A model generated the notes under the pieces. It did not search any database, was not told the DNA's origin, and saw only the letters and a program-made list of their open reading frames with translations. A DNA stretch of 64,000 nucleotides from Streptomonospora salina. GTDB lineage: Bacteria > Actinomycetota > Actinomycetes > Streptosporangiales > Streptosporangiaceae. Both the position numbers and the translations under genes were made by a program. The stretch is from positions 558,001-622,000 of the forward strand of contig NZ_JACHLY010000001.1 of the NCBI RefSeq assembly GCF_014204715.1, read 5' to 3'. How positions within the stretch are numbered: the first letter of the stretch is position 1; the number at the start of each line of letters is the position of its first letter. Positions 41,015-41,048 of the stretch are shown here, piece after piece.

Positions 41015-41030
41015 AGTAGTGACCCCCTTC

Positions 41031-41048
41031 CCTGCCTCACTGGACAGG
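41031..41048 (-). promoter_or_regulatory. PyrR-binding hairpin in pyr operon leader
   Basis: On the minus strand an 18-nt element reads CCTG, TCCAGTGAGG, CAGG. CCTG/CAGG form a short stem and the loop matches the PyrR-binding consensus TCCNGNGAGG at every fixed position. It ends about 16 nt before the pyrR start, immediately upstream of the AAGGGGG ribosome-binding site. This is the arrangement described for mycobacterial pyrR, where PyrR bound to the loop blocks translation initiation. I see no attenuation terminator, so translational control is inferred. Confidence 0.75.

Follow-up and report, generated by a model that had tools for sequence, protein, structure and literature searches.

The window analysed here, a 64,000-nucleotide stretch of the Streptomonospora salina genome, encodes on its minus strand a pyr gene cluster that begins with pyrR (40385–41014), a 209-aa reading frame with a GTG start that matches NF003547 at 295.5 bits (cut-off 230). 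Profile matches identified the genes behind it as pyrB (39477–40388), whose start overlaps the pyrR stop in an ATGA, pyrC (38080–39378; start chosen by similarity), carA (36899–38083; 4-nt overlap with pyrC), carB (33579–36884), pyrD of the TIGR01037 type (31629–32567), and pyrF (30462–31163), whose start was placed by eye at a GTG behind AAGGAG and which has an in-frame ATG at 31184. The reading frame between carB and pyrD was assigned to pyrK (32582–33487) on a best NCBIfam match of 165.2 bits, below the cut-off of 314. Intergenic gaps are 14 nt at both carA-carB and pyrK-pyrD, 98 nt at pyrB-pyrC, and 91 nt at carB-pyrK. From the pyrD stop to the pyrF start there are 465 nt (444 nt with the upstream ATG), including a 39-bp tandem repeat of 3.7 copies with 98% match (31380–31524), and with pyrF placed this far past pyrD and behind a repeat, the control of the whole eight-gene operon suggested in a first-pass annotation is conjectural. 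Elsewhere in the window, an FMN riboswitch (10214–10344, minus strand; 93.8 bits) and a TPP riboswitch (50713–50826, plus strand; 56.7 bits) score above their Rfam cut-offs.

The genome thus has an intact pyrR, as expected of translational-type PyrR systems. In the PDB, 11 distinct PyrR sequences match the protein; some are ancestral or engineered, and the set includes 1a3c, 1ufr, and 1w30, which we take to be the Bacillus, Thermus, and mycobacterial proteins. The stretches TRIAHEI and VDRGHRELP...GKN, presumably those that bind RNA in Bacillus subtilis PyrR, are kept in the five PyrR alignments shown.

Sequence reading and comparison with other leaders revealed a PyrR-type hairpin of 43 nt ahead of pyrR (41063–41021, minus strand), in the minus-strand order TAGCGT-GAAGCCGTTC-GACATCCTTTAACAG-CCTGTCCAGTGAGGCAGG-GAAGGGGGTC-ACTACT-GTG. 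The PyrR loop consensus TCCAGTGAGG is matched exactly at 41044–41035, is clamped by CCTG (41048–41045) paired with CAGG (41034–41031), and is followed directly by the pyrR Shine-Dalgarno (SD) sequence GAAGGGGG (41030–41023) and the GTG start at 41014, all as first annotated. The upper hairpin (41048–41031), recovered in the sequence, the 20-nt and 40-nt folds, and the alignment, consists of CCTGTC, the hexaloop CAGTGA, and GGCAGG, and so carries the hexaloop and consensus UCCNGNGAGG on a stem that are characteristic of PyrR hairpins. The first-pass interval, 41015–41048, contained this hairpin and omitted the 5' side of the element (41063–41049), where the strand GAC-A-TCCTTT (41063–41054) pairs with GAAGGG-G-GTC (41030–41021), the strand that includes the SD; sequence, alignment, and SD pairing probabilities all point to this lower helix. 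Because of that pairing, the element spans 43 nt, with two helices and a 5-nt bulge on the 5' side, and the helix beneath the PyrR hairpin includes the ribosome-binding site. The bulge, AACAG (41053–41049), begins with AA in most relatives, and the alignments to RF00515 and among the leaders (A2, below) agree with the lower stem CCUU/AAGG and A-rich 5' bulge of known PyrR hairpins. With the SD forming the 3' strand of the element, the hairpin overlaps the ribosome-binding site of the first pyr gene, which is a feature of the translational type. A pseudoknot between the loop CAGTGA and TCACT (41022–41018) was considered by eye and rejected, as one leader (L007) has CAGCGA together with TCATCACT and the Streptomyces leaders have no TCAC at that position.

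An in-frame pyrR start follows AAGG at a distance of 4–17 nt in 199 of 219 leaders; the other 20 all fall outside the class, by which we mean the class of the source organism. Upstream, TAGCGT (41079–41074) fits TANNNT and is a probable -10 hexamer 22 nt before CTTT, a spacing that would put the transcription start probably near 41067, just ahead of the hairpin. TANNNT begins 22–34 nt before CTTT in 176 of the 219 leaders, a count made without a chance control, and a sigma-70 scan found no promoter consensus. Upstream of the probable promoter, GAGAGTCA (41133–41140, minus strand) recurs in two Nocardiopsis leaders (L034 and L036) and is a possible further promoter element.

The element resembles the Rfam PyrR family RF00515, under which the accessible text of PMC3766115 catalogues 211 PyrR motifs. 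In a 201-base search, RF00515 aligned from 41062 as CCUUU-AA...UCCAGUGAGG...AAGG at 30.2 bits (E 0.011), taking in the binding hairpin and the lower stem CCUU/AAGG, with the downstream terminator half poorly aligned. The loop is presumably the PyrR recognition sequence, and the RF00515 consensus agrees. The likeness to this Bacillus-type attenuator thus covers the binding hairpin with its CCUU/AAGG lower stem and the loop UCC.G.GAGG; unlike the family, the S. salina leader has no terminator that we could find, uses the AAGG strand as an SD, and falls short of the gathering cut-off of 54 bits. Rfam at gathering thresholds gave no match at the pyrR leader, and an RF00515 search of the S. salina genome gave none at E 0.001. 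Among 20 loci searched with RF00515, the cut-off was passed in three (L146, L147, and L234) and E 0.1 was reached in 14.

Loop and clamp by themselves are weak evidence for a PyrR site. The loop consensus occurs eight times in the 64-kb window, where 5.15 occurrences are expected from shuffles and 16 of 100 shuffles reach eight, and the 4-bp clamp accompanies two of the eight; only at the pyrR site are both flanking motifs, CTTT before and AAGG after, present with the proper spacing. A covariance model of the whole element (R1) found one strong match in the 5.6-Mb S. salina genome (E 1.2e-15), a search in which 150 of 3560 first-look candidates were scored and the site itself was part of the training alignment. 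Further matches among those 150 candidates were weak, with E 0.33 or worse.

Conservation of the gene and the element is extensive. We found pyrR in 41 of 41 relatives including S. salina itself (one, G022, by a weak partial match only), in 147 of 148 sampled genomes of the class, and in 56 of 60 sampled from the phylum. The hairpin precedes pyrR at 200 of 200 in-class loci, 197 recognised by a pattern that permits T/C and G/A changes in the closing pairs and three by R1. These loci comprise 110 first leaders (from 30 of the 41 relatives and the best 80 of at least 565 contigs, heavily Streptomyces), 27 of the class sample, three of the phylum sample, and 60 chosen across families; the named contigs among the best 80 we assigned to the class by assumption. 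The set is redundant, with L003/L031, L008/L032, and L122/L225, for example, present twice, and the 197 pattern hits represent 150 distinct segments. Of the 110 first leaders, 99 carry the consensus TCCNGNGAGG unaltered. Among 225 loci inside and outside the class, 221 matched the pattern, 219 had CTTT upstream, and 220 carried AAGG or AAAG on the downstream side. The closest named locus among the matches listed is that of Streptomonospora sp. PA3 (L031), with 87% protein identity.

A covariance search in related genomes, suggested as a check by the first-pass annotation, came out in favour of the element: R1 recovered the site at full length in 40 of the 41 relatives (143 candidates scored per genome under stricter filters), matches that are partly by construction since many of these genomes supplied rows to the model. 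The relative without a site, G022, has an 89% complete genome in which a full pyrR match is likewise absent, and weak partial extra matches were seen in G010 and G040. The three in-class loci missed by the pattern, L200 and L207 (neither with a BLAST anchor) and L215 (short stem), were matched at 65.4, 63.4, and 41.9 bits by R1, which had been built without them.

Alignment A2 comprises 98 nonredundant rows less than 86% identical, each selected for CTTT and AAGG/AAAG, so that this choice of rows accounts in part for the invariance of those bases; L158 and L184, with one or both flanking motifs absent, stand outside it. Its covariation score was 0.234 versus 0.129 +/- 0.007 in shuffles, 83 cells changed on both sides versus 28.8, and 89.5% of cells were paired versus 82.6%, none of these values being reached in 500 shuffles, a statistic that ignores relatedness among rows. 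Eight pairs showed any double change versus 6.4, reached by 15 of 500 shuffles. Taken alone, the four outer pairs of the SD helix scored 0.313 versus 0.200 +/- 0.022 (0 of 500 shuffles), and the number of those pairs with any double change was not above shuffles (477 of 500). Further in, the SD pairs are nearly invariant, and therefore no covariation is visible in them. Sliding the register lowered covariation to 0.071–0.117 for the whole structure and 0.027–0.193 for the outer pairs, where raw double-change counts were 40 and 39 versus the observed 39. Pairing was stricter in the upper helix (96.1% of cells) than in the lower (85.1%), whose outermost three pairs were unpaired in 41, 30, and 29 of the 98 rows. 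A smaller alignment (A1; 38 rows, one structure pair out of register) gave the weaker picture of 0.173 versus 0.150 (1 of 500 shuffles), with fewer pair types than in shuffles. RNAalifold, given no structure, recovered the inner SD helix and the upper hairpin from the 98 rows, and the outer GAC/GTC pairs were absent from its consensus. Across 196 in-class leaders, in segments of about 53 nt, the mean probability that the SD AAGG is paired was 0.961 versus 0.409 with the upstream bases shuffled, and it exceeded 0.9 in 179 leaders versus 6.

Folding of the S. salina RNA alone was less specific about the upper part. The consensus structure of the 43 nt has a predicted energy of -15.1 kcal/mol (-8.5 for the upper hairpin by itself), and the minimum-energy fold, at -16.0 kcal/mol, keeps the SD helix with an alternative GCCT/AGGC upper register favoured by 0.9 kcal/mol. 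The 79-nt and 146-nt folds do likewise, so the consensus upper register is argued from the relatives rather than from the energy of this sequence. Compared with shuffles, the only stretch to stand out was the 20-nt hairpin (z -1.93, 4 of 200 shuffles as stable); stability was not exceptional at 40 nt (z 0.74), 79 nt (z -1.09, 26 of 200), or 146 nt (z 0.33, 123 of 200).

Terminator counts differed between the class and its sister classes. A scan of the stretch between the hairpin and pyrR detected no terminator-like structure in any of the 197 leaders of the class (1.4 in shuffles), and the S. salina leader has no minus-strand intrinsic terminator downstream of the hairpin. Of the 51 genomes outside the class in which pyrR was matched in full, R1 found the hairpin in 47 at E up to 0.0015, including 23 of the 26 loci L232–L257, none used in training; it had no match in L158, L250, and L252, and in L241 it reached just E 0.16. 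With one of the 47 offering no usable stretch for the scan, terminator-like structures followed the hairpin in 26 of the remaining 46 (1.9 in shuffles), three being weak (-7.6 to -7.9 kcal/mol) and one (L157) having an estimated pyrR start; a stricter scan gave 14 of 43. Among the leaders with such structures (L139, L140, L144–L148, L155, L156, L159, L161, L163, L164, and others), a short ORF often runs into the terminator, and the T-run often reads as Phe codons.

A classical antiterminator pairing, of the hairpin 3' half with the terminator 5' arm, was sought in the 25 of these 26 leaders that were anchored and found no support, none reaching p<=0.05 (median p 0.505) in a crude comparison with shuffled arms; CCTT or CTTC was present in 16 of the 25 arms. 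With 8 of the 47 out-of-class leaders lacking an anchor for this count, an ATG or GTG 4–12 nt after AAGG was seen in 11 of 22 terminator-type leaders versus 5, 4, 9, and 4 in farther bins, and in 13 of 17 other leaders versus 6, 1, 4, and 5. As seven terminator-type leaders have no start codon 4–14 nt behind AAGG, these counts are no more than suggestive of leader ORFs after the hairpin. The direct form, in which the hairpin SD serves pyrR, was also seen out of class in L149, L153, and L160. Tentatively, and with clearly less than even odds, one PyrR hairpin may have acquired two or three outputs in the phylum. Its 3' strand would act as the SD of pyrR in the class, would often precede a terminator in other classes, and in some of the latter would be positioned as the SD of a short leader ORF running into the terminator, with PyrR gating a leader peptide whose translation prevents termination. 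The direct form would then have arisen when the terminator was lost and the SD became joined to pyrR.

We propose, at a probability of roughly 0.85, that the PyrR-UMP complex holds the SD-sequestering hairpin shut, thereby repressing pyrR at the level of translation and the genes behind it through coupling or polarity. The pyrR mRNA would open with two stacked helices and a small bulge, the upper helix acting as the PyrR recognition hairpin and the lower pairing the pyrR SD with the TCCTTT strand that lies a short way past the probable promoter. At high UMP, the PyrR-UMP complex on the upper hairpin would keep the entire element closed and deny ribosomes access to the pyrR start; at low UMP, the ribosome would prevail and translate pyrR. 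Downstream genes might follow by translational coupling, for which the pyrR/pyrB overlap is suited, and through polarity or the decay of mRNA that is not translated. The first-pass annotation had placed the hairpin directly before the SD; the SD is itself paired with the upstream TCCTTT, which makes this an SD-sequestering hairpin that PyrR would lock, and more than a protein lying next to an SD. Folding predicts the SD to be hidden even without PyrR, so the model leaves the ON state unexplained.

Other readings account for part of the evidence. If PyrR controlled pyrR as in Bacillus, stabilising an anti-antiterminator (described for B. subtilis in the available part of PMC4347634) and so allowing an intrinsic terminator to form before pyrR, the likeness of the hairpin to the RF00515 anti-antiterminator would be explained, as would the 26 terminator-bearing leaders of other classes in the same phylum. 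In S. salina this is very improbable, as the own leader and all 197 in-class leaders scanned were free of terminators and only 6 nt (41020–41015) separate the element from the start codon. These results, with the conserved structure and the SD inside it, give good computational support to the first-pass prediction of translational repression by PyrR as against a Bacillus attenuator.

Within a translational scheme, PyrR on the upper hairpin could simply cover the nearby SD, with the lower helix incidental. The stricter pairing of the upper hairpin would suit such steric occlusion, which we nevertheless consider unlikely given that the lower helix covaries, that SD pairing lies far above the shuffled control, and that CTTT is present upstream in 219 of the 221 leaders found by pattern. 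Strong conservation near a probable promoter could also mark a DNA site, or a structured translation start in which PyrR has no role; covariation, which indicates pairing in RNA, a loop that is presumably the PyrR recognition sequence, as in the RF00515 consensus, and the identity of the next gene as pyrR make this reading hardly credible.

Action of PyrR on a ribosome-binding site has reported precedents. In Thermus ZO5, work of 1997 by Van de Casteele and colleagues is said to have proposed that PyrR blocks a leader peptide and so brings about termination; the leader described here would resemble it in that PyrR is predicted to act on a ribosome-binding site, and differs in that the SD is that of pyrR and no leader peptide or terminator was found. 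In Mycobacterium smegmatis, the pyr leader reportedly has a PyrR hairpin, no attenuator, and an occluded first ribosome-binding site. As far as the accessible accounts of that system go, the S. salina leader, in a different genus, is like it in all three respects, occlusion being a prediction here. The available parts of three papers (PMC10672894, PMC13328217, PMC6455119) cite Fields and Switzer (2007; J Bacteriol 189:6236) as the source for translational repression by PyrR in M. smegmatis, and the mechanism is therefore known; what we add is breadth and structural detail, and the 2007 paper may already show the SD helix. Among the papers listed in our literature searches, which mainly reached work outside subscription journals, none dealt with the pyrR leader of Streptomonospora or Streptomyces.

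These analyses extend probable translational control by PyrR from mycobacteria to every pyrR leader of the class that we read. The gain is a computationally tested structural model that places the SD within the lower stem of this hairpin, together with a covariance model that covers a version of the element scoring below the Rfam cut-off. With the same module followed by terminators in sister classes, a switch between transcriptional and translational control would be testable by comparison within a single phylum.
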